64,000 nucleotides of DNA from Agaricus subrufescens (taxonomy: Eukaryota > Basidiomycota > Agaricomycetes > Agaricales > Agaricaceae), in the NCBI GenBank assembly GCA_029945375.1, contig CM057066.1:2108001-2172000 (forward strand), written 5' to 3'. Below the pieces are notes generated by a model, which had not been told where the DNA came from, did no database searches, and saw only the letters and a list, made by a program, of their open reading frames with translations. The position numbers were made by a program, and so were the translations under genes. Positions 25,849 to 58,800 of this stretch are shown here, piece by piece (position 1 is the first letter of the stretch; each line of letters opens with the position of its first letter).

Positions 25849-26732
25849 ATGGACATTGACATCGATCAACCTATGGATGTGGATTCGGACCACGAAGTTA
25901 TTCGAGTCTTCTCTTAACCAAAGATTCTCATTGACATTGAGCACCGCAGGTCGTACAGCTCCCGGACTGGGTCATGCGTCCTGTACAGTCTGAGATGGAT
26001 GAGGGATTGTACAAGCTTCGCGAAGACGATGAGGGCATCTGGATCGTCTACAACTGGAAAGATGATAACCCAAATGCCCGGATCGAACCATTCTATCAAC
26101 GCTGGCCCCCCAGTAGAACAAGTTCCCGTCTTTGCTCTTGGATTGGTGTCAATCGCGGGTTACCTCCTACTCCACAACTCAACGAAGAAGCATATCACAA
26201 ACGGTTTCGTATGGACATAGAGGGATTGCAAGACGAATTCCTGGAGATAGAAAAGAAAGTCGATGCTCAGGAACTCAAATTAACACCAGAGATGATTGAC
26301 GAACTGGCAGCCAAATATGGGGTTTTGTCTGGAAAGTGGCTGGTATATGCATCACCAGAAGAAGTAGATCAACTCTGGAGAAAGGTCGTTCGGGTCGTAG
26401 CGTTCGATAGGGGGTACGGTTCTGTCAAAGTTTCCTCTCGAAAAATTCTGGATTCGTCATCCAAAACATCTTTTGTCGGGTCGGAAGCTGATAGCGATGT
26501 ACCAGACCCAGCTGAAGGACACGTTATATGTGTCTACGTCGATGATTATCTGGATAAGGAGAAGGTAGACGGGCTTAGGAAGGCTTTGAGGTTCCGTGCA
26601 GGGGTCTTGAAGAGGATCGGGTTCAAACCAGACGTGTATACTTGGTTGGGTATATATAAAGGCAATAAGTTTGGAATCAGACCCAGTAAATATCACGATT
26701 CAGATGCTTGGGCGAGTAGAAGTAGGAACTAG
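25849..26732 (+). CDS. C11orf68/UPF0696 (DUF1917)-like protein
   Basis: Two exons, 25849-25896 and 25950-26732, give 276 aa. Conserved features of the family seen here are IWIVYNWKDDNPNARIEPFYQRW near the N-terminus, LTPEMIDELAAKYGVLSGKWL in the centre, an AFDRGYGSVKVSS loop and HVICVYVDDYLDKEKV. The end is FKPDVYTWLGIYKGNKFGIRPSKY. The animal homologue (BLES03) has an eIF4E-like fold and unknown function, so only a cytosolic RNA-cap-like fold can be suggested. The first exon (MDIDIDQPMDVDSDHE) depends on a weak GTTATT donor. If that is wrong, translation would begin at the ATG at 25974. The gene converges with the transhydrogenase gene, with only 139 bp between the stop codons. Confidence 0.75.
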
Positions 26733-37870: not shown

Positions 37871-40741
37871 ATGCCCCTCGACCGCTCCTCTGGCCCGGAT
37901 CCCGACTCTTGCCACACAAATGAGATCCGTCTGTTCCAACCAACGCATATCCAGTCCTCTGGGGCCACGCCTACCGGAACTGTCTCTGCTCCTTCACAGG
38001 TCCGGGTCAATGGGCTAGCTCCAGCTCATGCCGTACCCCTATGGGAGCCTTCTACTGCAGTACACAAGCCCGTTCCCCTGCCATCACAAGCCAAACTTCC
38101 CGATACGTGGCGGCCAGTTTCGTCGTCAACTCCTCGATGCCGTGTGGAGGGTCAATCCGCTCACCATTTTGATCGCTCGTCACTATCACAAGCGGCCCAC
38201 CCTGATACTGACACATGCGATACAGTCGACCCACAATACCGTTCTCTTCACCACGGCTACTCCCGAGGCCCTCAAGCTGGCAGGGTTGCTGAAGCTGCGA
38301 CCCACTTTGCACAGCCTTCTCTAGTGTCTCAACGCCCAGTGCGTTTTTTCTTATCAGCAGATCGTAATCGCCCTGACATTCTCCGGACTGATATCTATCA
38401 CGCCCGCAGCACAGACAAGGCATGTTCAATCAAGCTAGCAATTTTTCTTTAGCGGGCAATGTGCTTATCGATAACAACGCAGACAATTGTGAGTATACCC
38501 ACTTACCACCTGTATAACGTACGCTCACTCGGTGTTATCTCGGCTAGTCACATTAAACAATATCCAGAACTCGGATAATCATTGTCAGTGATACTTCACA
38601 GTGTATTTAGCTTATACTGACCCCGCCGTATCTAGTCATGGCAATACTTCTGCGGAACACGATACCTGGAGCGGAATACAATTCATCCGATCGCGATCCG
38701 CCTCCGCGTTGTCACCCTGGAACCCGATTAAAGATTATAGAACGATGTCAACAGTTTATCCTTACCTGTGATGGCACCGAAAAAGTACAATGGGTAGTAG
38801 GTGCTGCCGGGGTTGGAAAATCAGCCATCATGCAATCTGTTGCTGAGGACGAATCTAATGTTCTCTCCGATATTGTTGTGGGCGCCACGATTTTTTTGTC
38901 CACTAACGGCCGCCAAGACGGAACGAAAGTCATCACGACCATTGCTTATCAACTGGCAGTAGAACTGGAGCCCTATCGCTTGTATCTGCAGAACGAGGTC
39001 ACCCGTGATCCGTCCCTGCTCCAGAAAGCTCTTTCAACGCAATTCAGTAAATTGATCATTGAACCATTCATCCGCCGCCGCCTTCTAGAGCCCTATTCTC
39101 GCGTCTTAATCATTATTGACGGCCTTGATGAATGCGACAACGCGTTCACACAGCAAGAGCTGCTCGAACTTATCTTGAACTTCTGTATAACATATCCTGC
39201 CTCGCCCATTGTTTGGATCATTGCGAGCCGTCCGGAACCTCATATTACAGCCGTCTTTGCTCGACCCAAAATTACGCCTGCATATGAAAGGGAGGAGATC
39301 CTGGTTGATTCCAATGAGGCCCGTGAAGATGTCGAGCACTACCTCCGCGATGAATTGAAGAAGGTTCAAATGGCATCAATCGCTCTCCAAGACCTGTCCC
39401 AATGGCCCTCCGAGTGCGATTTTCTCAAGATTGCTAAAACTTCGGATGGGCTATTCGCATATGCCTCGACTGTGGTCAGGTATATCAACAATGCCGCCTA
39501 TGGAGATCCAGCCTCTCGGCTCGATGATGTGCTGGTGATCATTGATACCGGTACGAAAAGTAATGTTCCCGGAAAAGATCATCCCATGGCTCGACTCGAC
39601 GCATTATACACTCATATCATGTCCAAGATTCCCGCCGATGTTATGGTCTATACTCGAAAACTATTCCTCCTATGCTTGGATGAAGATTGGGATCACTTTC
39701 CCTTTCAATTCCACTGCAATTTGTTAGGGATGACGCGAAATGCTGCTTATGGTGCCACTCATCATATCCGCTCCCTTGCTAGAGTCCCGGGACCCGCTGA
39801 AGCCGCCAACGATTCCCTTGAATTTTTCCACAAATCATTTCCTGACTTCCTCCGGGATTTTGATCGATCCGGATTCTCCATGGATGTTCGCGCTGAGATC
39901 GAGGAACTTAAAAATCAGATTACCCTCAGAATTATTAGAGAGGCTCCTGAGGGCATTGATATGGATTGTCTGGGTGACGATACCCTATTAATGTGCCGCG
40001 GTGCTTTGAAAAGGACCTTCAAGTCTAACAGCCACATCTCCCTCTCATGGCCTGCCCAGGGACGAATCGAGTGCACTGCGATGCGATGGACTATGTACCG
40101 CAAAGCCCTATGGGAGATTATGGATGGATTCGGTCGACGAAAACAAGTTTTCCAGAACCGGCTTTGTATTCGGGTTTTGACCAGTTGTTTCGTCGAGGTT
40201 CCGAGCATATTTCCCTTTAGAACTCTACGTAATATTGCGTTTGTAAGTTGTATCAAGCTTTATATCGCGCACATTCAGTTACTGATGTCTTACATAAGGA
40301 CCAATCTCGCCGTCGTGAACTCTTGAGATACGGTATTCTGAGGGAGGCCCCTTTGGAAACACTTAAAAACGAAAAGATCCCGAGTAGATTCGTACAATGG
40401 TATTTTAAGAATTCGACAACTGAAAACTCTATCACGCGATATAAAGTAAGTTTGATTGTTGTATCTTATCAGTGTTCGATATTCATCTACTTTGCCAGTG
40501 CGAAAGTGAAGAAGAGTGGAGAGATCAAAAGGAGCCAAAGGAATTTGACTTTTATTGCGATTACTGTATGCAACGACTAGAACAATATCTAGAGCCGCAA
40601 TTACCGGCTCTTCTGGCAACTGTTCTTGACGTTACGCCTACGTTGCGCTGGGTGGAACTTCGGATAGCTGATACGAATGATGGTGTGTCAGAATGGGTAT
40701 GTTACTTTGCTTGTTTGGAAGGGGATGAAGCGGACGATTGA
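37871..40741 (+). CDS. NLR-like NACHT protein, copy 1 (intact)
   Basis: Six exons: 37871-38338, 38410-38488, 38548-38583, 38636-40242, 40299-40445, 40499-40741, in frame throughout and giving 859 aa. Residues 1-156 are a Pro/Ser/His-rich disordered tail beginning MPLDR. Exon 2 encodes the short motif GMFNQASNFSLAG with IDNNA. The NACHT ATPase follows: entry block GAEYNSSDRDPPPRCHPGTR, Walker A GAAGVGKS (about residues 250-257) and Walker B LIIIDGLDEC (about 352-361). The region after it is helical (winged-helix/HD part, ending near HKSFPDFLRDFDRSGF). No WD40, TPR or ankyrin repeats follow. The last 130 residues are a compact module with YCDYC and DVTPTLRWVELRIADTNDGVSEW, shared by the other copies. 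STAND ATPases of this kind oligomerise on activation and mediate cell death or non-self recognition; that role is inferred from the family. Confidence 0.88.
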
Positions 40742-41888
40742 GTTGCTCTATATGCGTAGTGTGTTCAATGTTTCCCTCAAAATCATTCGATTGCATATCG
40801 CATATTATTATATCCATATGAATAGTGGTGACAATGATGCTTTTTCTGATTGCATTTGAAAGATAGGGATCTCTGCCTAATGGGCCAAAAGGCTGAAGTA
40901 CCTCAATTGCAACTAGATTAACTCGTTTGAAATATGGTTCTATCCACACAAATGCGGGATATAGGTTCTTCATGGGCTGTTAGGAGGTCTAGAAAGAGGA
41001 ACGTCCCGGGGAGGAGCTCAGGTGTTTCGGGATTCCGTAAGTTGGATTACTGCGGACTTTAAGTTTTGCTTTAGAGACGGACTAATCGTCGTTAGTGGGT
41101 TACTACATTCCATTCGCCATGTCGAGGTCGGTCATCTCAGGGTCAGGATTTTCGATGACTTTAGTGCTAGTTTAGTCTCGCTCTTATACTATTACACGTG
41201 TCACATGAGTTGGGGATTTGGTTATTTATTAGTCGTTCATTGGGTGGAGGAACACTAACAGATGAAGGGTGATTTATACCGTTATGCTCTCGAGCTCGGA
41301 TTCCCAACCGTTGCTCTGTTAAACGTTCGCGTCCGGTCTCGGGTGACGCAGACAGAATATTCTTCGCGCTTGCGCATTACGTACACAATGCGATAATCCT
41401 CGAGCGGTATCAACCGATGCTTTCCCCTTTGAACCAGATATGGGAGCGAACAAGTTGACAGGATACTGGGAAGTCAGGGGTCGGGCTATGCTCCTGCCAG
41501 GTGCCCATTGTATTACACGGGGGCTCAAACACGATTCGCGATGTGCAGCCTCACCTGATACTAATGAACTGTTGACGCATAGTATGAATGACAGCCTTTA
41601 TGAAAGTGGCGCCCCGAGGGTGCTGTGCTGGTAATGAATCAGGCCTTTTCTTTACGCAACATTGTTTTGAGGTTCAAGATCCCGACCGTTACATTGGCTT
41701 CCATTGTAGGAGAAAATCACGCAATTGTTCATTCAGGGACGTGGGTCTTTGATCCCGCCCTAGAATCTATATACTTTGCGCGCCATTAAAGGTGACGGAA
41801 TTCTGCCGCTTATTCAGTGGAACTAGTTCATAGCGTTCTGCCAAGTTTTGTTCTCGATTGCAAACCCGAACACACAGGAAAAAGATCG
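40742..41888. other. Intergenic, no gene recognised
   Basis: AT-rich 3' flank of NLR copy 1, then 0.9 kb without coding signs. Confidence 0.5.
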
Positions 41889-41896
41889 TATATAAG
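41889..41896 (+). promoter_or_regulatory. TATA box of the glutamine amidotransferase gene
   Basis: TATATAAG sits 58 bp before the ATG at 41947, with no ATG in between. Confidence 0.6.
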
Positions 41897-41946
41897 ACAG
41901 CCGGGGTTTACCTACTAATATCATCCCCCAACTCTCCCATTTAATC

Positions 41947-43088
41947 ATGCCTGCCTCTAGTGCTAGAACCGTCCGTTGTGCTCTGTTCGTTAATGACTAC
42001 TGGACCAAGTCACTTTTGTCCCACAATGGCGACTACCTCAACATGTATAGGCGATGGCTGAATGCTTCGTTGCCCAAGAACTCGGGCTACTCCCTCGTTA
42101 TGGATGCTTATGACACCCAGGATGGAGAGTATCCTCAGAAGGAGTACATCGACAATTATGATGTTATGTTGCTCTCTGGGTCATGTAAGTTGGATTATTT
42201 CTTGCCTCGAGTGCCATATAAAGACTGACCGATTGTTGCTCTCAGCTAATGATGCATGGTCTGATGCGCCATGGGTTTGCGAACTTGTGGATTTCATTGC
42301 GGATGTTATCAAAAATTATCAGACTATCAGACTTTACGGTGAGTCTAGTCATAGTCGTATGCTGCTGCTATGGTCGTTTTCTGATGCTTTTATACCAGGT
42401 GTGTGCTTCGGGCACCAGATCATCTGTCGTGCTTTGGGTGGCTCGGTCGGTAAGAACCCAGGAGGCTGGGAGATTGGGCCTACCGCTCTCCAAACTACCC
42501 CTATGGGTAGATTGGTCTATGACGCAGAAAAAATTGTAAGCATAACGATCTACGATTGTAAGAGCACTAAACGAATATCTGGTTGACGGATAGGCACTCC
42601 AACAATTCCATCAAGATGCTGTACCAGTAGAATCCTTGGCTGATAAGTTTGCTACGGGCGAACTTTACCTCTTGGCCAGTTCACCCAGAACGGTCAACCA
42701 GGGTATCGTCAAGTTCTACAAATTCGGCCCGCATTCAGAGGGTCCCAACTTCAAATACATCGAATTCGCTCATATCTTGACCAGTCAGGGTCATCCGGAA
42801 TTCGATGAGGCCACGATGACTGAGCTCATTCGTCAACGTGATGAGAAGAATCACCTTGATGAAGATGCGGTTGCTGGCTACTTTGGTCCCAAGGGCTCTG
42901 GTCGCGAGCACGAGCCCCATACTAGCAAGCGCCGACATGGGGCTAGGTATGGACCAGATTACGATGGTGTTCTTGTGATTGGAAAGGCGTTCTGGGAGAT
43001 GTTTGGTGTAGACTATAGTCAGGATACCCGGATTTCGTCGTTGGCAATGAAACCGAATGCTGGCCATCTCTTTTCGCTTGCTGACTAG
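41947..43088 (+). CDS. Class I glutamine amidotransferase-like protein
   Basis: Four exons, 41947-42184, 42246-42338, 42399-42535 and 42594-43088, give 320 aa. The triad is visible: nucleophile Cys113 in GVCFGHQII, His223 and Glu225 in SQGHPEF. YDVMLLSGS and DAWSDAPWVCELVDFI are the usual flanking elements, and RALGGSVGKNPGGWEIGP follows the nucleophile. This is the stand-alone GATase1 type (GuaA-like fold; the yeast relative is encoded near YLR126C, and plant GGP gamma-glutamyl peptidases belong here). It probably hydrolyses a gamma-glutamyl amide or glutathione conjugate in the cytosol. The C-terminal 90 residues (HTSKRRHGARYGPDYDGV) are an extension beyond the minimal domain. It lies between NLR copies 1 and 2, but there is no sequence sign of a functional tie. 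Confidence 0.9.
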
Positions 43089-43586
43089 TTTATGTGTCTC
43101 TGTATACTGGTAAATACCGATGTTATTTGTTATGTCTTGATGAGAATGCGGATTCATGTGTCGCACCACGCACTGAGTAAAATGGCAATCAGCAAAATAA
43201 TCCTGATGTACAAGCACTCTCTCTAACGCGATACGATTATGTTAGTACATTCAATGTGACAATAAGTACACAAGAATTGCACTATCATAAGGCAATGCTT
43301 GATCCAAAGTAAGGAGGGCTGTGTTCCCTCACTACAAGGCAGTGGCACCGGAGAAATCCGAGCTTTCCGTCTCGATGACGAGTGTCTGGAGTCCAAATTC
43401 ATACGCAGATTAACTAGCCAAGTTTGATCAAGTCCCTATGAGGACTGCGGACACCTGTCATCGAGGAGACAACGACGGATGAAATTTGAAAGGTCAGATT
43501 TTTCTGATGCCACCTCTTGCCTCACTACCGCCGCCAGACGAGATTCTGGCTGAGCACTACCAGGGCGACCCACCGCTACAAAGCCT
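43089..43586. other. Promoter region of NLR copy 2
   Basis: No ORF that can be supported. Contains the upstream flank of the NLR pseudogene. Confidence 0.45.
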
Positions 43587-46543
43587 ATGCCAGGTGACCG
43601 CGCTCCCAGGCCCCACCACCGGTCCTTGCCATATCCCGACGTGCCTTCGTGTCGGCCTCACCAGACTCGCCCCTCCATCGATGTCGCTTCTACCTCGTCA
43701 TCTGAGCAAGATAGACCACACCAACCTTCGCCCTGGGGACCTGTGGTAAACATCAGTTTTGCCGCCCGCGACACCCAGGACAATGGCTTGAATTCAGCTC
43801 CTGCCGTGCCGTCGCAGTGTTTGGCTACTGCAGGCATCGCCACCCCCCAGCCAACATTCCGCCCTCAGTCAGTCCGCGATACACCTTGGTCTGGGTCTGA
43901 CAACAAGGATTTTTTGGTTGTTCCGGTGTGTCATCCATCATACTATGATTCCATTTGAATATTCTTAAGTTGAATAGATCCCGGCACTGGCACCGGCAAT
44001 CCAATTGTTTCCTCCTCCGTCCTCATTAGTTGGGAATCCAATCCACGTGCCCCCGTCATCGTTGGTTCGAGACCAATACCCAGAGGAATATCATTCCTCG
44101 CCCGGGTCGCCCCTACAAACTCACCTTGACGAGCCCATTTCCTCCTCGGATATAATGTCACACCGCTCCAGCGCTCCAGTGACCCATGGTCGAGAACACA
44201 ACAATCCGATACAGTAAGCGTCACTCCCTGAAAACTGTTATACTATATGCTAACTCACATCGCGGATAAGTCACCCTGAACAATATTCATGTGTCGGACG
44301 ACAAGTGTAAGTAGGTTAATGTATGATTAGCATTCACTGATTATCGCGTACCTATGTCTAGTCATGAACTGGCTCTTGCAAAACACGCTAATTGGAGCAG
44401 AATTCGATTCTGCTTACCGATACCCGCCACCACGATGTCACCCTGGAACACGATTAGCAATTATAGAACGATGTCATGAGTTTATCCTGACCTGCTTTGG
44501 CCGTCAGAAGCTCCGATGGATAGTAGGCACAGCGGGAGTGGGAAAGTCGGCTATCGTGCAATCTATCGCTGAGGACAAGGCCAGCGTTCTCTCTGGCATT
44601 AAAGTGGGAACCACCATTTTTTTTTTCTATCAATGGACGTCAAGATTCCACAAAGACCATCATAACCATGGCCTACCAATTTGCCGCTAAACTTGAGCCC
44701 TATCGTCGGTTTGTACATGGTGAAGTCGCACGCGATCCATCTATCCTTCGAAAGTCTCTTTCGACTCAATTCAAGATATTCATTATCGAGCCCTTTATTC
44801 ATCTGCAAATGTTGGATCCCTCTTCTCGTGTATTGATTCTCATTGATGGTCTTGACGAGTGCGACGATCCTTTAGAGCTCCTTGACCTTATAGGAGACTT
44901 CTGCCTCGCATACCCTACGTCGCCTGTTGTGTGGGTTATTGCTAGTCGTCCCGAGCCTCATATTGTATCTTCCTTTACTCAACCAAGGATCGCCCCCACT
45001 TACGAGAAGGAGGAAATTGTGGTGGATTCAGATGCAGGCCCGTGAAGACGTCGAGCGCTACCTACGTGACGAGTTGAAGAAAATTCAAATGGCATCTATT
45101 TCACTCAAAGATTTGCCCCGCTGGCCCTCGGAGGACGATTTCCTACGGATTGTTTGCGAGGCAGATGGATTATTCGTCTATGCTTCGACAGTAGCCATGT
45201 ACATTAGTGACCCCACCTACGGAAACCCAGCTTCTCAGCTCGAGGACGTCCTGGAGCACATCAGAACTGGAAAGCAAGACACTATACCTGGCAAAAGGCA
45301 CCCGATGGCTCGACTCGATGCCTTATATGCGCATATAATGTCCAGGATTCCAGCGGATGTCATGGTTCATACCCGAAAGCTACTCCTCCTATGCTTAGAT
45401 GAGTATTGGGGTGACGCTTCTTTCCAATTCCACTGCAATATGTTGGGAATGGACCGACACACCGCCTATGGTGCCACTCACCACATCTATTCCATCGCTA
45501 CTATACCTGGGCCCGCTGAGGCTTCAAAGGGCCGCCTCGAAATCGTCCATAAGTCTTTCGAAGACTACCTGAAAGACCATCGGCGATCAGGATTTTCTGT
45601 TGATATCAATTTTGAACGTCAAAAGCTCAGGGCTCAGTGTGCGTTGAGAGTTGTCGAGGAGGTTCCTAATGGCATCAACTTTGGTAGTCTGTCCAGAAAT
45701 TTCTTTGATGGCGGTATCTTCAGAAACGGTCGTGGGGCTGGGGAAAGTATTTCTCTCTCGTGGCCCGCCGACGAGCGTTTTGGGGAATCACAAGGCCACC
45801 AGATGAGATTAGATATGTATCGTGAATCCGTCTGGGAGGTTATGTGTGGGTTTCGTCGGAGGGAAAAGGTTTTTCAGAGTCTGTCCTGCATACAATTATT
45901 GACTAGGTGTTTCGTTGAACCACCTATTGACTTTCCTAATCCGACATTGCGCGATACTGTTTTTGTAAGTTTTTTTCAATATTCTTTAACCATTATGTCG
46001 CTCAAGATACTTGTAGGATGAAACGCACCGAGATGAGCTTTTGGAACATGGTGTACTCAAGTTAGTGCCGTTGAAGACATTAGAATATGATAAGATCCCT
46101 ACTCCATCTTCTATTATACTTCACTTTCGGAGTTCGGCGGATGGACGTCCCAACTTGTGGATGACTTCGTGTGAAGTAAGTCAGATAGTTGAGATAGTAA
46201 GAAGTTTATCATTAATCATTTGTTTGTCTAGCATCAACGGAAGGGAAAGTGGGAAGGTTCAGACCAGGATTGGTCAACGGAATTTAAGAGACCAATGGAA
46301 CGCTTTTATAGGACTGGTTTGCGCTATTCAGCTTGGGAACTTGAACAATGTGGATATTGTTTCGAGCGCTTTACTCGACATTTTAAGAAGAGGTCACCTG
46401 GTCATCTCGTTACTGTGTTGGATGTTACCCCTGGATGGCGTTGGGTGGAACTTCGGTTTATTGATGAGGATGATGGTGTGTCGGAGTGGTCGTATCGTTT
46501 TGCCCATGGGGAAGGGGATATGAATGTATATTCGTCGTTGTGA
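43587..46543 (+). pseudogene. NLR-like NACHT gene, copy 2, with two +1 frameshifts
   Basis: Same layout as the intact copies. The N-terminal exon starts MPGDR at 43587 and ends at 43925; a second exon runs from 43978. NACHT sequence follows from 44364 with Walker A GTAGVGKS and Walker B LILIDGLDEC. The frame breaks twice. At 44617-44626 a run of ten T replaces the nine needed to read TIFFSINGRQD. Near 45030-45045 one extra base in GATGCAGGCCCGTGAAGA turns DSD-ARED into a stop. From there the third frame runs open to the C-terminal exons (QCGYC, DVTPGWRWVELRF, DDGVSEW) and stops at 46543. The short motif seen in the other copies is degenerate or lost (only MSHRSSAP remains), and the intron before exon 3 does not keep phase. 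The T-run break could be a sequencing or assembly error; the second is not in a homopolymer. Most likely a recently inactivated copy. Confidence 0.82.
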
Positions 46544-47177
46544 TTATCTTCGACGGGCGGTTGTTTCCTGCTTGTTTGTTTTTGCGCTATTAGGGGAATG
46601 AGATTAGCCGTTCGGGGTTTGGCATTCTCCTTTAGGTGAACGCTTATGCAATATATATTATTAGGCAACTTTTGTTATACGGTATGTGTGTTACATAAAC
46701 CGCTTTCTCCGTGTCCTCGTAGGTAGGCCAGATATCGATTATATCGGTAGATTCACCGGCCTTAACCCTTCTTCGCAAACTGATGAATCTAATCTATGCA
46801 TTCGAGCCTCCCTGAGAAAGGAAATATCACCTGAAAGATACAAATCGATGCCATAAAGTTCCAGCATACGTAGGACTTCAGTCGCTCCCGGGCCGGCGCC
46901 AATCAACTTTATGGTTCCTGGCAATTGCGATCATTCCCAGTAAGTACTTCATCAGGACTGATAAAGTGTACCGGGCCGAGTGGTACCCGGAGGTATAGTG
47001 TCACTGGGACCGTTTGAGTCATCAAGATAGCCTGATTTTACTCCTATTTAGCTCATTTAACAGCCCCTGTTGTTCTGCGTTCGGTCTTACTGTATTCAAA
47101 AATTGCTTGGGGTAATTTATAGGGCCCGAGTTTTATTTATTGCCCTCGATCACCTGGAAAGAATGAACAGACAGACG
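46544..47177. other. Intergenic, no gene recognised
   Basis: 3' flank of NLR copy 2 and upstream region of aldehyde dehydrogenase copy B. No supported ORF. Confidence 0.5.
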
Positions 47178-47185
47178 TATATAAA
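47178..47185 (+). promoter_or_regulatory. TATA box of aldehyde dehydrogenase copy B
   Basis: TATATAAA is 68 bp upstream of the ATG at 47246. Confidence 0.6.
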
Positions 47186-47245
47186 TGATCCTGGGACGTA
47201 CTGATCAGTTAACTAGTAACCCACTGCACCCAGATTTTTTCCCGC

Positions 47246-49668
47246 ATGCCACAGACGTATACGCACCATTTTGATACTCCCGTCTATAAGGGCTCTGTCA
47301 CTTTCAATACAGGGTAAGTGGTTTCGGGTTTTCGTGAGGACAGTTCTTTTGAGATATTATTATATACAGGTTGTTTATCAATGGTAAATGGGTGGACCCG
47401 GTTGATGGAGGACAACGTATTGAGTGAGTGATGATGTGTTTAAGGTGTGAAGGTTGCTTGTATGCTAACCTCTTCTCATCATTTCAGTGTTGTCGATCCG
47501 TGTATGCACATCCAATCTACCTGCTCGTCTGCGTTCTGATGACTAGCACAGCCACTGGCAAGCTCATCACCTCCGTTTCTGGAGGAACATCAAAAGATGT
47601 TGACGTTGCCGTCGAGGCCGCCGCAAAGGTTCGGATTTCTAACACCCTTTTCTCAAATGGTACAGCTAAATAATGGTTGAAAAACAGGCTTATAAGACCT
47701 CGTGGGGCTTCAAAATTCCTGGAGCACAACGTGGAAGGTTACTCTCCAAATTGGCAGATCTGGTTGAGCAACACACTGACGAACTAGCTGCGCTTGAGGC
47801 TTTGAATGTCGGTTAGTTGCAGTCGCAGGCTCTCGTCTTTCAACTTATGAATACTAATGTGTACTGATTCATAGGGAAGAGTTTTCATGTGGCGAAAATG
47901 ATTGATCTGCCTGCGACAATCAGGCTTTTGAGATATTATGCGGGTTGGGCTGATAAGATCCAAGGCAAGACGATCGAGGTCAGTGGATATCTTGAGCGTA
48001 GATTTTGCCTTTCAATCGTGTGTTGACTTCGATAACAGACAAACGAGAACAAAATGGCTTACACAAGGCATGAACCGTATGGTGTTTGTGTACGTACTGC
48101 CTACTGCCTGATTCTGCGAGCCGAAAGTCGCTGAGCTTGTTTTTCCTAGGGAGCAATTACCCCTTGGAATTTCCCTCTCGTGAGTGGTTCTGCTATAGAG
48201 ATTTTTTTTTTTTTTTCATGTGCTTGAGCTCTCACAGTCTGTCGTATCCATCAAGATTGGTCCTATGCTGGCTACTGGGAACGTTGTAGTCCTCAAGGTA
48301 GGCGCTCAAATGATAGTAGAAAACAAAAATATATGTGTTAATGACTACAAAGCCTTCAGAAGTCACTCCATTCACAGCACTCTTCATTGCCGATCTCATC
48401 AATGAGGCTGGCTTCCCTCCCGGTACGGTCAATATTATCAATGGCTATGGTAAAATTCTGCGTACAACGTTCATGACACTCTCTTGCTCAACGTAGAGGA
48501 AATATAGGTAATACTGTTGGAGATGCGATTGCAAGGCATCCATCGATCAGAGCGGTCGGGTTCACAGGAAGCACGTTAACGGGGCGTAAGCTACTTAAGG
48601 CATCTGCCGAGACGAACCTTAAAAAGATCTCTCTGGAGCTTGGCGGGAAGAGCCCTATCGTTATTTTCGATGATGCCGATGTCGAAGAGGCGATCAAATG
48701 GGCGAGCAGGGGAATTTTGTGAGTTATCTGTTATCGACACAGGGCATTATATGCTGACAGACTCGTTATCATCGATAGCTTTAATATGGGCATGTAACAT
48801 ATGTTTGTTTTTCTGAGAAAGGTTTTGACATTGAACAGGACAGGTCTGTGTCGCTTCGGCACGGATTTACGTGCAAGAAGGTATATATGACGCGGTTTTA
48901 GCGGGAATGACGAAGATGGCGGAGGCTCTTGTTGGCGCGACTGGAGGCCCTTTCGAACCAGGAGTTCAGCATGGACCCCAAGTGTCGAGTGTACACTTTG
49001 AGGTGAGGTATTATTGGAACATCCTGGCTACTGTTTACTTACCCGGATCATAGCGCGTTATGGCATATATCAACTCTGGAAAGAGCGAGGGAGCGAAAGT
49101 CCATATCGGAGGCGAGAGACACGGGAACACGGGTTACTTCATCAAGCCGACGATCTTTACTGGTGCCAGTGCGGACATGAAAATTATGCAGGAGGAAATT
49201 TTTGGTCCTGTCTGTTCGATCGTCAAGTTCAAGACCGAAGAAGGTAATTGCTCAATCTCTTGCAAAGGTGGCACTCTCAGTAACTTCGGAGTTTATCAGA
49301 GGTTACTGAATGGGCAAACAACACTTCATATGGGCTGGCTGCAGCCGTTTTGACTGAGAATGTATCTCGTGCAATCAGGATGGCGCATAACCTTGAAGCG
49401 GGATCTGTTTTTGTCAGTCTATCTTCTAATTATCTTATGATCGGGATCTCATACTGTTTAAATTCAGGTCAATTCTGGGCCGGGTGCGGATACGGCTCTT
49501 CCTTTCGGTGGTTATAAGCAGTCGGGGATCGGTAGGGAGAATGGCGAGGATGCTCTCTATGAGTGCGTAGTAGATATTCTCATTGATTGATATAGAACTG
49601 ACCAGATTTTTGCTTGTAGATATACCCAGGTCAAAGCCGTTCATGTGAACATTGGCCAAAAGTTGTGA
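47246..49668 (+). CDS. Aldehyde dehydrogenase (ALDH1/2-like), copy B
   Basis: A gene of about fifteen exons and about 500 aa, paralogous to the minus-strand copy at 29749-31925. The first exons are 47246-47313, 47370-47423, a 14-base microexon 47488-47501 and 47552-47628. Landmarks: [58 protein letters not shown], catalytic Glu in LELGGKSP and catalytic Cys in GQVCVAS. Then [21 protein letters not shown] and [12 protein letters not shown]. The intron just before the catalytic Cys (48790-48838) keeps the frame only if a GC donor (GCATGT) is used; otherwise the enzyme would be disrupted there. All other exons are intact, so I regard it as functional. It lies between NLR copies 2 and 3, as if tandem duplication occurred around it. 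Confidence 0.9.
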
Positions 49669-50091
49669 AATTATCCGTTTTCGCAGTTCAGTGTTTTGTT
49701 GACGAATGATATTACGTTGATTATTCTCCGATTAATGTTTTGTTGTTAGTAAAAGCGTGGCGACTGCTTGGGACAAATATTATTGGAGCAAAGTCAGGGA
49801 TTGGCCTCCTTGAAGTTACTGAAGTGGCACGGGAAATAAGTTGAAGAATTCATGCAATAGCACACTAGAAGAGACTCAGGATAGTGTACGAGGAAAGTGT
49901 AGCAAAAAAGAGCGGATTGATATAGATACGGGACAGTGGACATCAATGATTCCCAACGCCGGTCTCCGTGACATCTTTCATAAACATAGCCTGGACACGA
50001 GGCAGGAGAGGGCTGTGGGCACTGCATTTTTGACGCCCATGAGCCGTACTATTATTGGCAGAAGCATTGTGCTCCGTTTCCCTCTATCCAC
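49669..50091. other. Promoter region of NLR copy 3 (duplicated with copy 4)
   Basis: From about 49881 this stretch is similar to the upstream region of copy 4 from about 53670 (shared ATAGTG..., GTGGACATCAAT, CATAGCCTGGACA and GAGAGGGCTGTG blocks). The promoter was therefore part of the duplicated unit. Confidence 0.65.
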
Positions 50092-53000
50092 ATGCCCTGC
50101 GACCGCTCTCTTCGCTGCGCTTCCCATTCATCCATACCCTACTCTAGTCGTCCCTCTTCTCGTATATGCACATCTCAGTCCCCTCGTCCTTCTTCCCGAA
50201 ACAATGCACAAAGTCAACGTAACCAATATAATCTCTGCGGGTTACCGCGTCCGTACCCCACTATCCCTGCAGGAAACGTTTTTACCCCTCCTCATATCCC
50301 AATCAATGGCCAACCTCTATCTCATTCAGCTCCACATCAACCTTTTGTTGGTCCTCCATCTTCCAGCGTTGACAATGACTACTTGGGTCCCCAAGTCTCT
50401 TCTTCCCCGCCTTGCCCGTCTTTCACTTTCACTTCGCCTGCTCCTTCGTGTCGACACGGTCCCTCCACTCCTAATGGCATGTTCGGCGAAATTCCAGTCA
50501 CTGATGTTGTTGGTCACATGTTACCCAGCGTCCATCACTATATATCACCGCGTCCGTTACTTGCCAACGAAAGCCCTCAGCCTCCTGACCATCGCCAGGA
50601 TCACCGTTCCTCTGACGAGTCATGTCGGACCAACACCTCTCCGTCGCCAGATGCCACTCAACTGCCGCATTCCAGCGTGTCCCTCCCCCCTCAGTCATCA
50701 CTTCTTTATCCAGCACCATCTCAGCTTGTAAACTACGACCATTCAACGAGCATGCAACGTCATCAATCGGACAATGCCTATCACGCTGCCCCTCGACATC
50801 CCCATTTTGAACAAGTCTCGCATTCCCGCAGCCAATCCATGCAGTCGTCTTTCATGCTGCAACAAATGCCTGTGAGTAATCAATTGACATTAATGCATAT
50901 CTTTTCTAAACCGTTCGTAGCACCCGTCCGACCAGCGTCTACAATGCGCTCAGAACCATGGTCAGGGCATGTTCTACCAAGCTAGTAATTTCTCGTTACC
51001 GGGTGCTGTGTTCATCGATTATAATGCTCCCAATTGTGAGGACCATTATCCCATACCAGATATACGACAGCTGACTCTCGTTATTACTAGTGAATTTTTC
51101 AATGCCAGAGAACAATTGTAAGAAAGTTATCGTCGTATTTGATTGAAGTATCGTGATTCTCATGTCCCTGTTCCTAGTCATGTCTTCTTTCCTCAAAGAA
51201 ACAATAATAGGAGCCGAATTTGATTCTTCGGATCCTAACATGCCTTTACGGTGTCATCGCGGGACACGACTAAAGATCATAAAGCGCTGTCAAGACTTCG
51301 CCCTTAGTTGTCGCGGCTCTCAGAAGCTGCGATGGGTGGTGGGTGCGGCAGGAGTTGGAAAATCAGCAATCATGCAGTCCGTTGCTCGAGAATCAAGTAA
51401 TCTCCCAGATGTTGTTGTGGGTGCTACTGTTTTCTTCTCTATCAACGGTCGCCAAGATGCAGCAAAAGCAGTGAACACCATAGCTTACCAGCTAGCTGCC
51501 AAATTTGCTCCATATCGTCTCTTTGTACAACGTGAAATCGCACGCGATCCTTCCCTTTTCCGTAGATCTCTACCAACTCAGTTCAACAAATTCATTATCG
51601 AGCCATTCATTTACCATCCATTTCTACCCCCTTCTTCTCGCCTTTTGGTCATCCTCGATGGTCTGGATGAGTGCTCCAATATTTCGACGCAGCAAGAGCT
51701 TATTGGGCTCATTTCATTCTTTTCCATCAGATACCCTTCCTCGCCTATCGTTTGGTTCGTTGCTAGCCGCCCCGAACCTCATATCAGGACCTTCTTTTTT
51801 CGAACTCAAGTCGTAGGCTCATATGAGGAAGAGGAAATCAGGGTGGACTCCAATGATGCGTCTGAAGATGTTAAACTCTACCTTCGCGATAAGTTTAGAG
51901 AGGTCCAGCTGTCATCAGCTGCTCTGCGGCACTTGTCTCAGTGGCCCTCTGATGGTGATTTCTTCAAAATTACGAATGCTTCTGGTGGATTATTCGCGTA
52001 CGCTTCGGCGGTAGTCCGGTACATCAATAATCCTACCTACGGGGATCCTGCCAGCCAGCTTGATGATGTATTGAAGTTGATCAGTGGTGTGACAAATTCT
52101 AATGTATCTGGAGAAGATCATCCGATGGCTCAACTCGATGCATTGTATTCACATATAATGTCCAAGATTCCGGCCAAAGCTATGGTTAATACCAAAAAAT
52201 TACTACTCGTATATGCGGGGGGATCCGTCTTAGAAAAACTGCCCTTACGTCTCATTTGTAATTTGTTGCAAATGACCGGAAATGCAGCCTACGGCGCTAC
52301 TCACCATATCCACGCTGTTGCTGTTGTCCCTGAACATGCCCAAGCTGCAGCAAAACCCCTTCAATTCTTCCACAAATCGTTCCGTGACTATATACAAGAC
52401 TTTGAACGATCTGGATTCTTCCCCGATATCCACTCTGAAGCTGCGCAACTCGGGGATCGGCTGGCCCTGAACATTTTTCGTCAAGCTCCCGATGGTGTTC
52501 ATGATGATAGGGGAAGGAAGGGCGACCTCGTCGTAGGCCAGTCGGGTAGTATGTTCAAGAATCTTCCCGGGACTCAGGACACCATCTCCCTTTCATGGAG
52601 TAGTGCTAGCGAGGATGACGATTACACAATACGCTTCAACATGTTTGATGTAGCTATAAGCTTGCTGCAGGATGGGCTTAGGAGGAGAGTACAGGAGTTC
52701 CGGAGTTTGTTATGCATGCATGTGTTGACCACATGCGTTGAGAAGGTGCCGGTGCTTTTCCCCGTATATGCTGTGCGAGACTTTCCGTTTGTACGTTGTG
52801 TTTAATTCTATCCCGGTTATGTTACTGAAATCTTGTTTAAGCAAGAACCTTGGCGCAGTGAGTTCCTGGAGCATGGCATTCTCAAGCAGGTTCCGCTGCA
52901 GACAATCCCTTTTCATGCGACCACGGCTAGTCGTTACATACGATTGCGGGTTAGGGGTCCTTTGGCAAACACGTGGAATGAATCCTGTCTGGTAGGTCAA

Positions 53001-53347
53001 ACAGCTATCGTTGGCGGAACCTTGATAATCATTTGTTTGCCTAGCATCGAAGGAAAGGACATAGTCAAGACTGGTCAACGAAATTTGAAGCAAACTCACT
53101 CTTCCCGACCAGCCCTTGCAGTTATTGCTCTCGACGGTTCAATGACCATATTGAAATGCTGTCACCGGACTATCTTGTCACGGTCCTTGAGCTCACCTCT
53201 GAATATCCCATGGTCGAGCTTCGATTCATGGATCCGGGAGACGGTGTGTCGGAGTGGATATATAACTTTTGCTTCGGCTGCTCGGACCCTGGTTTGACTG
53301 ATGACCTGCTCTCGGATGGTGAATACCAAAGTGACGGTGGCATATGA
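50092..53347 (+). CDS. NLR-like NACHT protein, copy 3 (intact)
   Basis: Six exons, 50092-50871, 50921-51035, 51091-51117, 51178-52790, 52842-52991 and 53045-53347, give 995 aa with all phases kept. The first 260 residues form a long Pro/Ser/Gln/His-rich tail beginning MPCDRS. Exon 2 holds GMFYQASNFSLPG with FIDYNAPN; exon 3 is only 27 bases. The NACHT part starts GAEFDSSDPNMP, has Walker A GAAGVGKS and Walker B LVILDGLDEC, and ends near HKSFRDYIQDFERSGF. The C-terminal module has CSYC followed by LVTVLELTSEYPMVELRFMDPGDGVSEW. Closest to copy 4 in sequence (both read MSSFLKETI before the NACHT entry). Probable cytosolic STAND switch; ligand and effector action unknown. Confidence 0.88.
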
Positions 53348-53916
53348 CCCTAATATATGCTTGCTGTTCCGAGCAGTTCACGGGGCAGAACTGTGATCTG
53401 GAGGATGGTATGTCGGAGTGGGTGCATTACTTTTCACTGTATCAAATTCGAAGATGGTTGGAAAGAAGGGTTGGATGATGAAAGGCTGAGGTGACGATGC
53501 TTACGACTAGCAGTCTTGAATCTAATAGCACTTCCGGTGTTAGCTTAATGCAGGATCCATGAATATATCGCCATGATCGCATTTTGAAATTGACACTAGA
53601 TATTGTTGAAATTGGAGGTGGTAATGGTGTAGCACTTTTTGGGGCGACGTACAGGGAGATATGTTCAGGATAGTGCATGAGGAAAATGTGACAAAGATGA
53701 GCCGGCCGATATCGATATTAGACAGACGACGAGAAGCCTGATTAGGTGGACATCAATCATTTTGAACGTCTGGTCTATCACGGAGGTCACTCTGTGACAA
53801 CTTTCATGAACATAGCCTGGACATGGGACGGGCGAAGCCCCGAGAGGGCTGTGAGCACTGCCTGTCCGACGCTCGTGCTCAAATAGCTTACTATCGTGTC
53901 TGTTTCGCTCAGCCCC
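53348..53916. other. Intergenic between NLR copies 3 and 4
   Basis: Contains the 3' flank of copy 3, then from about 53670 the duplicated promoter block shared with copy 3. No separate gene. Confidence 0.6.
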
Positions 53917-56900
53917 ATGCCCTGCGATCGCTTTCCTCCCCGCCCTCCCCGTTCATCCATACCTTACTCTAGTCGTCCCTCTTCTCGTGTATGCACACCT
54001 CAGTCCCCTCGCCATTCTTCCCAACATGATGCACGGAGTCAAACTAACCAATATAACCTCCGCGCGTCACTGCATCCGTACCCCGCGATCCCTACAGCAA
54101 ATATTCATACTCCGCCTCATATCCAGGTCGACGGCCAGCCTCTACCTCAATCAGCTCCACAACAACGTCTAGTTGTTCCTGGTGTTACGGTTCCCGGTAC
54201 TTCATCTTCTACCCTTCGCGATAACTGGTCCACTCCCCAGACTTTGTCTTTACCGCCTTACCCCGCTTTCTCGTCACCTTCTCACCCTCCCTCCTATGGA
54301 AATATTTTCCCTACGTTCGATCTCTCGTTGTTCAGCGGCACTCCAGTCACTAGTGTCGCTCCCCATGCGTCGCCTTACGTCCATCATAATCAATCAGTAT
54401 ATCACGACGGTTATACAACGGGCGTTGAACACCATCCATCATATGGTGGATATCATGCTGCGTCTCAACGTCCTCAACCTGAACAAGTGCTGCATACGCG
54501 GAGCCAATTTGAGCACCAATCTTCCATTCTGCAACAATCGTCTGTGAGTAACTACTCGACATTGATCCACACCTACTCTCAACTATTCCTAGCAGCGTCT
54601 ACAGCGTCAAGAAAACCCTGGTCAGGGCATGTTCCACAAAGCTAGTAATTTTTCACTGCAGGGAGCCGTCCTCATCGATAACAATGCTCCCAATTGTGAG
54701 GACTCCTCTCCTTTATTGAATATACGACAACTGACGTTTGTTATGGCTAGTAACTTTAAACATGTCGGACAACAACTGTAAGAAAATTCTCACCTTATAG
54801 TATAATCGAAGAGACCTGATCTCGTATACCCTAGTTATGTCTTCCTTCCTCAAAGAAACAATAATGGGAGCCGAATTTGATTCTTCGGATCCCAACATGC
54901 CACAACAGTGCCATCCCGGAACGCGAGTGGAGATCATAAAACGCTGCCGAGACTTCATCCTCACCTGCCATGGGCCTCGGAAATTGCGATGGGTAGTAGG
55001 TTCAGCCGGGGTCGGAAAATCGGCGATCATGCAGTCTACTGCTCGAGGATTAGACGATCTCCCAAATGTTGCTGTCGGCGCCACCGTTTTCTTTTCTATC
55101 AATGGTCGTCATGATGGAACGAAAACAGTCAACACTATAGCTTACCAACTAGCTGCCAAATTCGACTCATATCGCCTCTTCGTCCAACGCGAAATCACGC
55201 GCAATCCTTCCCATTTCCGTAAATCACTACCAACTCAATTCGACAAATTCATAATTGATCCATTCATTCGTCATCCATTCCTTCCCCCTTTTTCTCGGGT
55301 CTTGATCATCCTCGATGGTCTTGATGAGTGCGCCAATGTCTCGACGCAGAAGGAGCTTCTCGGACTCATTTCATCCTTTTGCGTCACCTACCCTTCTTCG
55401 CCTATTGTGTGGATGGTTGCTAGCCGCCCTGAGCCTCATATCACATATTTCTTCTCTCGATCTGAAAGCGCACTGTCATATGAAAAAGAGGAGATTCTGG
55501 TGGATTCAGATCAGGCACACGAAGATGTCAAACACTATCTCCGTGATAAGTTCGAGGAGATCAAACTGTCATCGATCGCACTCCACCGTTTGCCACATTG
55601 GCCTGTGGAGGATGATTTCTTGAAAATTGCCAATGCTGCGGGTGGCCTATTCGCGTATGCCTCGACGGTTGTCCTGTATATTGGTGATCCTAACAGCGGA
55701 GACCCTGCTGAAAAACTTGAAAATGTGCTAGACGTTATCGAGGCGGGTGTGAAACCGAATTTATCTGGAGAGGACCATCCAATGGCTCAGCTCGACGCAT
55801 TGTATGCGCATATAATGTCCAAGATCCCAACTTGTGTCATGGCCAATACAAGAAAATTACTACTCCTTCATGCGGAATGCAAAGTGAATATTCGTGGCTT
55901 CCGTGGCATTTGTAATTATCTGGGACTGACAGAAAATGCTGCATATGGTGCCACTCACCAAATCCGCTCCATTTCTATGACCTCTGGCCCTGGTGACGCC
56001 CATAAATGCCATTTTGAATTCTTCCATAAATCGTTCCCCGACTACCTACGAGATTTCAGACGATCTCAATTCTCGCCAGACATCAAATCTGAAGCTGAGC
56101 AGTTCATAGAACAATATGTATCAAGAATTTTTGAAGATCTCCTTAATCGCGTTTGCTCGGATGGTGCGGGTGAGGAGGGCTTGGCGCTTTCCTTCGGCGT
56201 TTTGGAGTATTGTCCTGGGCGTCGGGATGATATAACTCTTTCATGGCCAGCTGCTGACGATGATTCCAATCGAAAAATACGCAGGGACATATTTGAATGC
56301 GCTCTCCTTGCAACCCCACTCAACCGGCCCCCGGATGGCGGAGTCAGGAAAGTCTTGACACTCTACATGCGAGTGTTGACTACATGTTTCACTGAGCTTT
56401 CAAAAGATTTTCCGTTGGATAAAGTACGAGACTTTCCATTCGTACGTAATATCAAGTGTTACGCTATCCGTGTTACTGAATTCATGCTCAAGGATGAACC
56501 TCACCGTTGTGCGTTCTTGGGACATGGCATCCTCAAACAAGTTCCACTGGAGACAATTGATTATGACGCAATTATGAGCGACCGTTATATACAATCACGC
56601 TTCAAGGGCCCAGGAGCTAACGTATGGAATAATGCCTGTCAGGTGGGTTTAACGCTTGTTAATGGTTAGAATTCAGCATTTATTCATCTGCCTAGCATCC
56701 AAAGGAAGGTCATGTCGATGACTGGTCAACGAGATTTGGAAGTTTTTGCGCCTACTGTTGCGACCGACTCATGCGTCATATGCAGAAGCAGTTGGAGGGC
56801 TATCTTGTCACAGTCCTTGAATTTACTGCTGAACATCGTGTGGTAGAGTTTCGATTTGTTGATCCTGAGGATGGAGTCTCGGAATGGACGTATCGGTTTG

Positions 56901-57013
56901 TTATGGGGAAATATATCTTTGGTTCCGAATCTGACAGCTGTGACGACGCGCAAGACGAGAATGTTGGGAATACGAATAGAGACTCAGGCGGCGAGCGTGA
57001 CAAAGATTCATAA
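53917..57013 (+). CDS. NLR-like NACHT protein, copy 4 (intact)
   Basis: Six exons, 53917-54543, 54593-54695, 54751-54777, 54835-56441, 56493-56642 and 56696-57013, give 943 aa. Starts MPCDRFPP; a 209-residue Pro/Ser/Gln/Tyr-rich tail follows. The short motif reads GMFHKASNFSLQG with LIDNNAPN. NACHT: GAEFDSSDPNMP, Walker A GSAGVGKS, Walker B LIILDGLDEC, ending near HKSFPDYLRDFRRSQF. C-terminal module: FCAYCCDRL, then LVTVLEFTAEHRVVEFRFVDPEDGVSEW and an acidic end. Intron 4 (56442-56492) is 51 bases without an in-frame stop, so a retained-intron protein of 17 extra residues is possible. As with the other copies, no sensor repeats are present after the NACHT region. Confidence 0.88.
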
Positions 57014-57260
57014 TGACGAGCTGATGGATAACCCTCACCCGTGTTTCATATATAACGAAAGCCGAGAGAGTGGAGTCCCCTGATTGGCGTGGCATCGCAC
57101 ATGTTCACGACAATACGACAATGTTGAAGAGAAAAGGAGAATTAGCCCTGCGATTGATTATATTGTGTTGCAATGAATATGTATAACTCGGTAGGCTGTT
57201 GGAGAAACGTTGGCGTCTCATCAAAGATCTTAACCTGACATTGGAGAACATTAATAATAA

Positions 57261-57286
57261 CACGGCGGACATTTAGCTGTCAAGTC
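57261..57286 (+). repeat. Left terminal inverted repeat of the MITE
   Basis: First of the two 26-bp perfect arms; next to the TAA at 57258-57260. Confidence 0.9.
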
Positions 57287-57966
57287 GTCTCCCAAATTGG
57301 GATGTCAAGTAATTTGTCACCTCGCTGTCATGTGGACTGTCAAGTCATGCCCGACGTGCCGGTCGGTCACTTGTCACGCAAAGGTGATCACCATATTCCT
57401 GCTGATTGTTGAACGTGAAATAGCACCTCCCTTTTGCTGTCTTTGTTAAGATGCCTTCGTCATGCTGAGTACTATGCACTTGTTCAAGGTGTCGCCTATA
57501 CCATTTCATTGCAGAGGATGGTCGACAATCCTTTGGAAATTTTGTTTCTCCTAACACACATACTACACACATGCAAAAGGAGTATCAGCAACCTGAGCCT
57601 CATAATAGTGCACAGGTGAGCCTATAACCGTTCTGAACTTAGGATTATTTTAGTTGAGTGATACAGGAGAAAAGTTCATGATCATATACTACCATAGGAG
57701 ATTTTGAGAGTGGATATTTGAAGAAATGGAATGATAGTGATCTTGGAATTCAATCAAAATTGCCACCGAGGCAACGTGTAGTATGATATAGCACCAAATC
57801 AAAGGAGATTCAGGATGAGAAATGGAGACGGATGGGATGACGGTCGAGGCACTGCAGGACGATAGAGGAATTACACAACAAGTGCGTGACACTGTGACAT
57901 GATCGTAAGGCACCGGCCAACTTGACAATAAGGAGTCAAATCACTTGACATCCCAGGCCGGAGGCT

Positions 57967-57992
57967 GACTTGACAGCTAAATGTCCGCCGTG
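57967..57992 (-). repeat. Right terminal inverted repeat of the MITE
   Basis: Second arm, an exact reverse complement of the left; followed by TAA at 57993-57995. Confidence 0.9.
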
Positions 57993-58122
57993 TAACAAGA
58001 ACATCAGCTCTGGGAAAAGTTTGTGCAAGGTTTGCGTCATTGGTAATAACGTGATCAGGCGCTGCCCCGTGCTCACGCTCCAATATCACAGCTCTTGCAC
58101 TGTGCCAACTCAGCATCCACCC

Positions 58123-58800
58123 ATGCCTGGTGACCGCTCTCTCAAGTCTTCTCATTTATTCCTCCCCTACCCCAGTCATGCCAATCACTTGTCGTTCCCC
58201 TCGCACCAGTCTCGCATCGTCGGTAGTATCTCGGCGCCGTACATCCGGCTCAGTCCACTTCAACCTCAAGAACCCTCTCTCGAAGACCATACACCAAACA
58301 ATTTTGGCGCTTCTCGGATCCCAATCAACCATGTGCCTATAGCAAATGCGGCGCAACAGCAACATTCAGCTCTTGTTGACGCTGCCATGCAACAGCAATC
58401 ACTGTCTATCCCTGATTCGGCACCTTTTTATCCAGTAGCATCCCAATTTGTCAGCTACAACAGTTTCACCGGCGCACAATATCACCAACCATACACTGTC
58501 CATGCCCCTACAACTCAGCAGTTCCAATGTGAGCATGTCACGCAAACTGGAACCCAGTTTACACAGCCATATTCTACCTTGCACGCAGTATCAGTGAGTT
58601 ACCTCTCGAGTTGAAGATGGCTGCTAAAGCATTTCTGTTAGCTTCCAAGTCAACGTCCACTACAACAGCGGGGCGACATTTTTCATCAAGCCCATGATTT
58701 TGTCATCAACGATTCCGTTTTCATCAACAACAATACACTGGCCCGGAGAAACCATAAGACAGGTGTCTTATTAAATCAATATTTAATAATAATTAAATGA
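58123..58800 (+). CDS. NLR-like copy 5: N-terminal region only
   Basis: Two exons, 58123-58593 and 58642-58800, give 209 aa. The start MPGDRS and the Pro/Gln/Ser-rich tail match the N-terminal exon of the intact NLR-like copies. Exon 2 matches their exon 2: QRPLQQRG, then DIFHQAHDFVIND with FINNN, a divergent version of the short motif. After LARRNHK the similarity stops and the frame ends at TGA 58798-58800 in AT-rich sequence. NACHT and C-terminal modules are absent downstream. It may be a gene truncated by an insertion or deletion, or a stand-alone carrier of the motif, comparable to small partner proteins beside fungal NLRs in amyloid-signalling pairs. I cannot tell which. The MITE sits just upstream and may affect its expression. 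Confidence 0.5.

Follow-up and report, generated by a model that had tools for sequence, protein, structure and literature searches.

What could sense a ligand, and what could pass the signal on, in fungal NOD-like receptors (NLRs) in which no repeat array is found? The question is raised by a 64,000-nt stretch of the Agaricus subrufescens genome (GCA_029945375.1, CM057066.1:2,108,001–2,172,000; hereafter the window), in which five copies of a NACHT gene lie in tandem, all on the plus strand. To our knowledge, self/non-self discrimination at hyphal fusion is poorly known in mushrooms, and the known fungal recognition models diversify by shuffling repeats. A preliminary description of the window had seen in the copies a fixed tandem design, which we could confirm as real. 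We read them as a local tandem cluster within a large family of Agaricaceae signal transduction ATPases with numerous domains (STAND) of the NACHT (NPHP3_N) type, in which the C-terminal domain would be the sensor, NACHT the switch and a short motif the amyloid-type output. We assign this reading a probability of roughly 0.58.

Five tandem copies around a NACHT core

As previously described, three copies are intact, one is frameshifted and one is N-terminal only. Copy A (37871–40741, 859 residues) has exons at 37871–38338, 38410–38488, 38548–38583, 38636–40242, 40299–40445 and 40499–40741; copy C (50092–53347, 995 residues) at 50092–50871, 50921–51035, 51091–51117, 51178–52790, 52842–52991 and 53045–53347; and copy D (53917–57013, 943 residues) at 53917–54543, 54593–54695, 54751–54777, 54835–56441, 56493–56642 and 56696–57013. 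All three give a single open protein after splicing from six exons in the same order (tail, two small motif exons, large NACHT exon, two short exons), with intron phases 0,1,1,0,0 and GT-AG introns of 49–71 bases, and their two short last exons end in ...CxYC...DGVSEW..., which bears out the common descent with conserved splice sites proposed before. Exons 5 and 6 could also be modelled in 27 of 30 paralogues fetched from the genome. The MPxDR start is common to all five, but copy B (43587–46543) is broken by two frame breaks in its NACHT exon, with readable C-terminal exons, and a pattern search found no motif between its start and that exon. Copy E (58123–58800) is a remnant consisting of an MPGDR tail and the motif, behind which tblastn with A, C and D as queries found no NACHT within the window.

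The whole layout recurs in one annotated protein, Agabi119p4_11254 from Agaricus bisporus var. burnettii (P0009, 941 residues), which argues for a single gene rather than separate tail and NACHT genes. It shares with the window genes the MPxDR start (here MPCDR), a disordered-type tail, the motif (here GMFDFAHDFVINNPVFVEN), NACHT and the C-terminal domain, in which it has both CxH and CxxC; it is one protein without described function, annotated as hypothetical or NACHT domain-containing, whereas the window holds a tandem group in another species. Copy A is 51% and copies C and D are 43% identical to P0009. The readable NACHT-exon stretch of copy B reaches 69%, so that B has a close and intact relative in A. 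bisporus. The first 45 residues of copy E align with the P0009 start at 45% identity (E-value 2e-6).

The NACHT ATPase core of copy D lies at 54837–55511 (residues 1–225 of exon 4), with the P-loop GSAGVGKS and the DGLDEC stretch, both kept in A, C and D. NPHP3_N scores far above the Pfam cut-off in all three; Pfam NACHT exceeds its threshold in A and D and narrowly misses it in C (25.7 vs. 26.7 bits). A fold search returned AAA+/STAND ATPases, with ORC/Cdc6 on top and CED-4, a wheat resistosome and Avs4 also among the rows, at TM values of 0.2–0.3 normalised by query. The NACHT ATPase of the preliminary description is thus upheld by Pfam and by fold matches, and the window genes carry the NACHT-type P-loop ATPase of fungal NLRs and NACHT STAND proteins.

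A repeat-free family with a conserved C-terminal domain

The genome (44.65 Mb, 44 contigs) contains at least 168 NACHT places (lists of 88 and 81, one shared) and at least 220 distinct places matching the last exon (exon 6) in two module searches, although near-identical duplicated blocks inflate both counts. When the 137 exon-6 places from the first module search are considered, and among the matches listed, the module lies within 3 kb behind 40 of the 81 window-like NACHT exons and 6 of the 88 Pfam-found NACHT places. A WD40 search listed 108 matches at E ≤ 1e-5, with 150 of 380 candidates scored, and no listed match came within 10 kb of any of the 168 listed NACHT places (0/168). Ank_2 and TPR_12, the only ankyrin and TPR models searched, gave 25 and 3 matches genome-wide; by eye, a NACHT place on contig C7 is followed 2.3 kb downstream by one sub-threshold Ank match, and on contig C5 one Ank match stands about 1 kb from an opposite-strand NACHT place.

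Searched with the NACHT part of copy D, protein databases yielded 703 relatives at E ≤ 1e-10, of which 120 were listed with metagenome fragments and A. bisporus on top. Neither the window copies nor these 120 have a WD40, ANK or TPR Pfam label, in agreement with the earlier statement that the family lacks such sensor repeats. The accompanying premise, that known fungal NLRs normally end in repeats, went too far: C-terminal WD40, ANK or TPR repeats are typical but not required (PMC4986451), and many fungal NLRs have no annotated C-terminus.

Where repeats might be expected, the window genes have a conserved domain of another kind, in copy D at 56097–57013 (exon 4 residues 421–535 plus exons 5 and 6), which we consider the candidate sensor. 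Its extent was estimated by cutting the C-terminal part behind a conserved HKSF...DF..RSGF stretch and comparing profile with profile. A profile of 21 chosen A. bisporus proteins matched 8 of 10 Macrolepiota proteins at 98.8% probability over 205 columns, and 3 of 9 Leucoagaricus/Leucocoprinus proteins at 95.2% over 197 columns. From this comparison, the conserved domain is judged to span about 250 residues, starting near residue 421 of exon 4 and continuing to the protein end. By the same comparison it is larger and older than the 130-residue module with a Cys-x2-Cys pair proposed at first, which forms its end; the conserved unit begins inside the NACHT exon, and the pair itself is present in all four window copies that reach the gene end.

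Among distinct models from the genome, 28 of 29 have the C-x2-C pair and 23 of 29 have CxH, copy A being among those without the His. The stretch from CxH, at the exon 5/6 junction, to CxxC (copy D, 56637–56758, split by intron 5) would supply candidate metal ligands. For relatives, we examined the 60 of the 120 with an organism name (41 from A. bisporus, 19 from Macrolepiota, Leucocoprinus and Leucoagaricus). A hidden Markov model of the end module (E < 1e-3, database of 60) found it in 34 of 41 and 2 of 19, respectively, and W..CxH plus CxxC occur in all 26 A. bisporus proteins with a recognised end (26 of the 41 examined). By eye, the eight Macrolepiota tails have no CxxC at the equivalent place (P0098 has one elsewhere), and the three Leucoagaricus/Leucocoprinus tails carry CRC, CGCTC and CRH there. 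The pair is therefore dispensable for the fold, and metal binding in Agaricus remains a guess.

The module has no Pfam label in the window copies or listed relatives and no PDB sequence match; for its exon 6 part taken by itself, a helix and three strands are predicted at low confidence. A zinc finger of the zf-C2HC_2 type (PF13913) was rejected, as it appeared on exon 6 of copy C only, at 14.6 bits against a curated cut-off of 27 and over 12 of 25 positions.

Several further observations concern the family at large. Exon-6-type modules stand in tandem or beside the end of another gene at two loci (L023 1489–2054 and L049 4068–4310), and some loci may have two C-terminal modules. Three NACHT relatives from Leucocoprinus (P0097, P0105 and P0109; 1423–1543 residues) have a PF01057 label, which we take to be Parvo_NS1, beside NACHT and probably carry two P-loop parts. 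The copies at window positions 38641–57013 are mirrored on the opposite strand of their contig (C10:2425000–2444000 in the searched genome, G000), with a near-constant coordinate sum, so that they form an arm of a large inverted duplication; exon 4 of copy D is 96% identical to its counterpart. The duplication is either a biological palindrome or an assembly or haplotype artefact. Module and NACHT matches of equal score also reappear, at a nearly constant offset, on two or three of the contigs C6 (0.87–1.23 Mb), C9 (0.59–0.95 Mb) and C2 (1.10–1.27 Mb), which suggests very recent large NLR-cluster duplications or a duplicated assembly.

Small-exon motif, selection and a proposed mode of action

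The two small exons of copy D (54593–54777) contain the candidate amyloid-like motif GMFHKASNFSLQGAVLIDNNAPNLTLNMSDNN, with equivalent exons at 38410–38583 in A and 50921–51117 in C and the consensus GMFxxASNFSLxGxVxIDxNAxN; in copy E, IFHQAHDFVINDSVFINNN follows the MPGDR tail. Two forms exist, SNFSL in the window group and AHDFVI in a group on contig C12, copy E and P0009, with AHDFVM in the Macrolepiota protein P0100. Of the 30 fetched paralogues, 26 (23 of the 27 that are distinct) have the pattern ahead of their NACHT exon, which is beyond chance, as 100 dinucleotide-preserving shuffles gave a mean of 0.61 and a maximum of 3. A rough regular expression, which misses some visible motifs and takes some chance matches, hits 17 of 41 A. 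bisporus proteins and 13 of 19 others. Two motif searches of the genome yielded 68 places. A listed NACHT stands within 800 bp of 34 of these, seven more have only the module behind, and the remaining 27 include copy E and two places that were read at locus L072. At this locus two degraded NLR copies follow each other, and one of them has the shortened motif GMFNSNLSLTGHMLIDNNAVN.

The motif follows a tail of 156–260 residues in A, C and D that is poor in order-promoting residues, P, S, Q, H, T, N and G making up 53–62% of it vs. 31–36% of the rest of the protein; no known effector domain was detected in the five tails examined.

Selection was compared by region from changes counted on region trees (nine sequences for tail and motif, 12 for the other regions). 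The ratio of nonsynonymous to synonymous change (omega) is lowest in the motif, 0.17 (0.09–0.27), followed by NACHT with 0.27 (0.22–0.33), the middle part with 0.44 (0.36–0.53), exon 5 with 0.53 (0.39–0.71), exon 6 with 0.72 (0.58–0.84), the tail with 0.75 (0.64–0.89) and exon 4 residues 421–535 with 0.82 (0.64–1.04). Pairwise medians are likewise lowest in motif (0.09) and NACHT (0.24) and highest in exon 5 (0.79). Because the motif has the lowest omega and resembles agaricomycete amyloid-like motifs (PMC9815663), it is probably the signalling output.

Site models, run on gap-free columns except for NACHT, where gaps were allowed, point to residues 421–535 as the strongest signal (twice the log-likelihood difference, 2ΔlnL, 57); a simulated null for this region stayed at or below 8.1 in the 23 usable of 25 replicates. 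The signal is weaker in the middle part (24.8), the exon 6 core (17.4) and the tail (15.7), and not significant in NACHT (3.4) or exon 5 (1.2, not rejecting nearly neutral change). The preliminary description had left the sensor to either the C-terminal module or the tail, and had taken the divergent tails as a sign of diversifying change. With a counted omega of 0.75 and 1.01–1.02 in the one-ratio codon model (M0), the tail evolves near-neutrally and retains a site signal weaker than that of the C-terminal domain. Alternatively, the C-terminal domain might serve as a lid, structural or autoinhibitory, with the long disordered tail meeting the ligand; the high tail omega, its site signal and its biased composition would be in keeping. 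We find this improbable: the signal in residues 421–535 is far stronger, the counted tail omega stays below 1, and A. bisporus P0040, P0091 and P0095 are annotated with the module and without such a tail, though their starts may be mis-annotated.

Taking the C-terminal domain as the sensor, we propose that its approximately 250 residues would recognise a non-self or altered-self cue and thereby free the NACHT module for ATP binding and oligomerisation. The oligomer would gather the short N-terminal motifs, each at the end of a disordered tether, and the clustered motifs could adopt a beta-arch, amyloid-type fold. The recipient of this fold would be a partner protein that also carries the motif, probably a death or defence effector of the HeLo/MLKL-like type whose gene lies elsewhere. 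For the window genes, we infer the amyloid fold, partner effector, ligand, cell death and metal binding.

A number of results weigh against this proposal. Confidence in the predicted fold is modest (mean predicted local distance difference test score, pLDDT, 67–68). The motif closes in DN or NN instead of the published G[DN], with the hydrophobic pattern present by eye. No motif-bearing effector was seen among the 68 motif places, three of the 27 without NACHT or module having been read, and the HeLo-like profile PF17111 gave no match, being silent in the controls as well. The site-level signal is found in the middle part and tail too, and none of 18 pairwise tests (six pairs, three regions) gave significantly more nonsynonymous than synonymous change. 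Gene conversion between paralogues could inflate the site-model values, so these favour diversifying selection without proving it. The comparison with diversifying allorecognition genes drawn earlier is accordingly matched by the site models, strongest in residues 421–535 and weaker in the middle part, last exon and tail, but not by the pairwise tests.

The pairwise tests would also suit neutral birth-and-death, with C-terminus and tail weakly constrained and devoid of a recognition role, as would a counted omega below 1 in all seven regions and the degraded copies B, E and two at L072. Such an explanation is unlikely in our view, given that the site models reject nearly neutral change for residues 421–535, the exon 6 core, the middle part and the tail, though not for exon 5 or for NACHT as the control, and that DGVSEW and CxxC of the C-terminal core are conserved throughout the family. 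Equally, the genes might encode STAND ATPases with a non-immune role, e.g., in secretion or development, their motif serving as an oligomerisation scaffold only. A fungal NACHT protein is reported to be needed for unconventional secretion (PMC13311144), and internal amyloid-like motifs are discussed as scaffolds (PMC9815663). Large tandemly duplicated families with a fast-changing C-terminus would be unusual for housekeeping, and we hold such a role to be quite improbable.

Under the sensor, switch and output reading, we tentatively suggest, with more doubt than confidence, that most NLRs of Agaricus and its relatives, hundreds of genes, gave up repeat arrays for a single-copy C-terminal sensor with few diversifying sites and, in Agaricus, a CxH/CxxC metal site, while a disordered tether presents an almost unvarying amyloid motif as output. 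A large repeat-free receptor family with a candidate sensor domain, sites and output motif would offer a concrete, testable alternative to repeat shuffling.

Neighbouring genes and known NLR systems

Unrelated genes lie between the copies, at 47247–49660 and 41912–43090: an aldehyde-dehydrogenase-like gene, with an LELGGKSP stretch that we take to be the motif of these enzymes, and a presumably glutamine-amidotransferase-like gene, one piece of which was searched without a Pfam match. Elsewhere in the window are a nucleosome assembly protein (16413–17372, minus strand; PF00956, E 9e-56) and a Bles03-like protein (25941–26729, plus strand; PF08939, E 2e-15). Two motif queries matched only copies A, C, D and E within the window, with no neighbouring effector gene carrying the motif.

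A close comparison is the NLR05/08/22/29/44 meta-family (PMC9815663), which has in common with the window genes a short motif that contains hydrophobic residues, precedes NACHT and is present in dozens of instances per genome. Judged by sequence, the window family has the short motif N-terminal of NACHT that marks agaricomycete amyloid-like motif NLRs. That source reports a basidiomycete motif group at the N-termini of 689 NLRs, with virtually no co-localisation with instances on the effector side, and gives an "NLR_PRDR" plus NLR05 architecture for 10 A. bisporus sequences. NLR05/22 motifs sit mostly at the very terminus there, whereas the window motif occupies its own exons after 156–260 tail residues.

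With HET-S/NWD2 of Podospora anserina (PMC9815663), the window genes share the proposed logic in which a receptor with an N-terminal amyloid motif triggers a separate effector. NWD2 adjoins its effector gene, unlike the window genes, for which no such neighbour with the motif was found in the window. NWD2 also ends in WD repeats, none of which were found in the window genes. HET-E type NACHT-WD40 receptors (PMC9815663) have in common with them the NACHT core and a proposed role in non-self recognition. HET-E type receptors carry exchangeable WD40 repeats; in the window genes no WD40 array was found, and the sensor would be one conserved domain. The window family would work like an amyloid-signalling NLR, combining familiar NLR logic with an unusual sensor.

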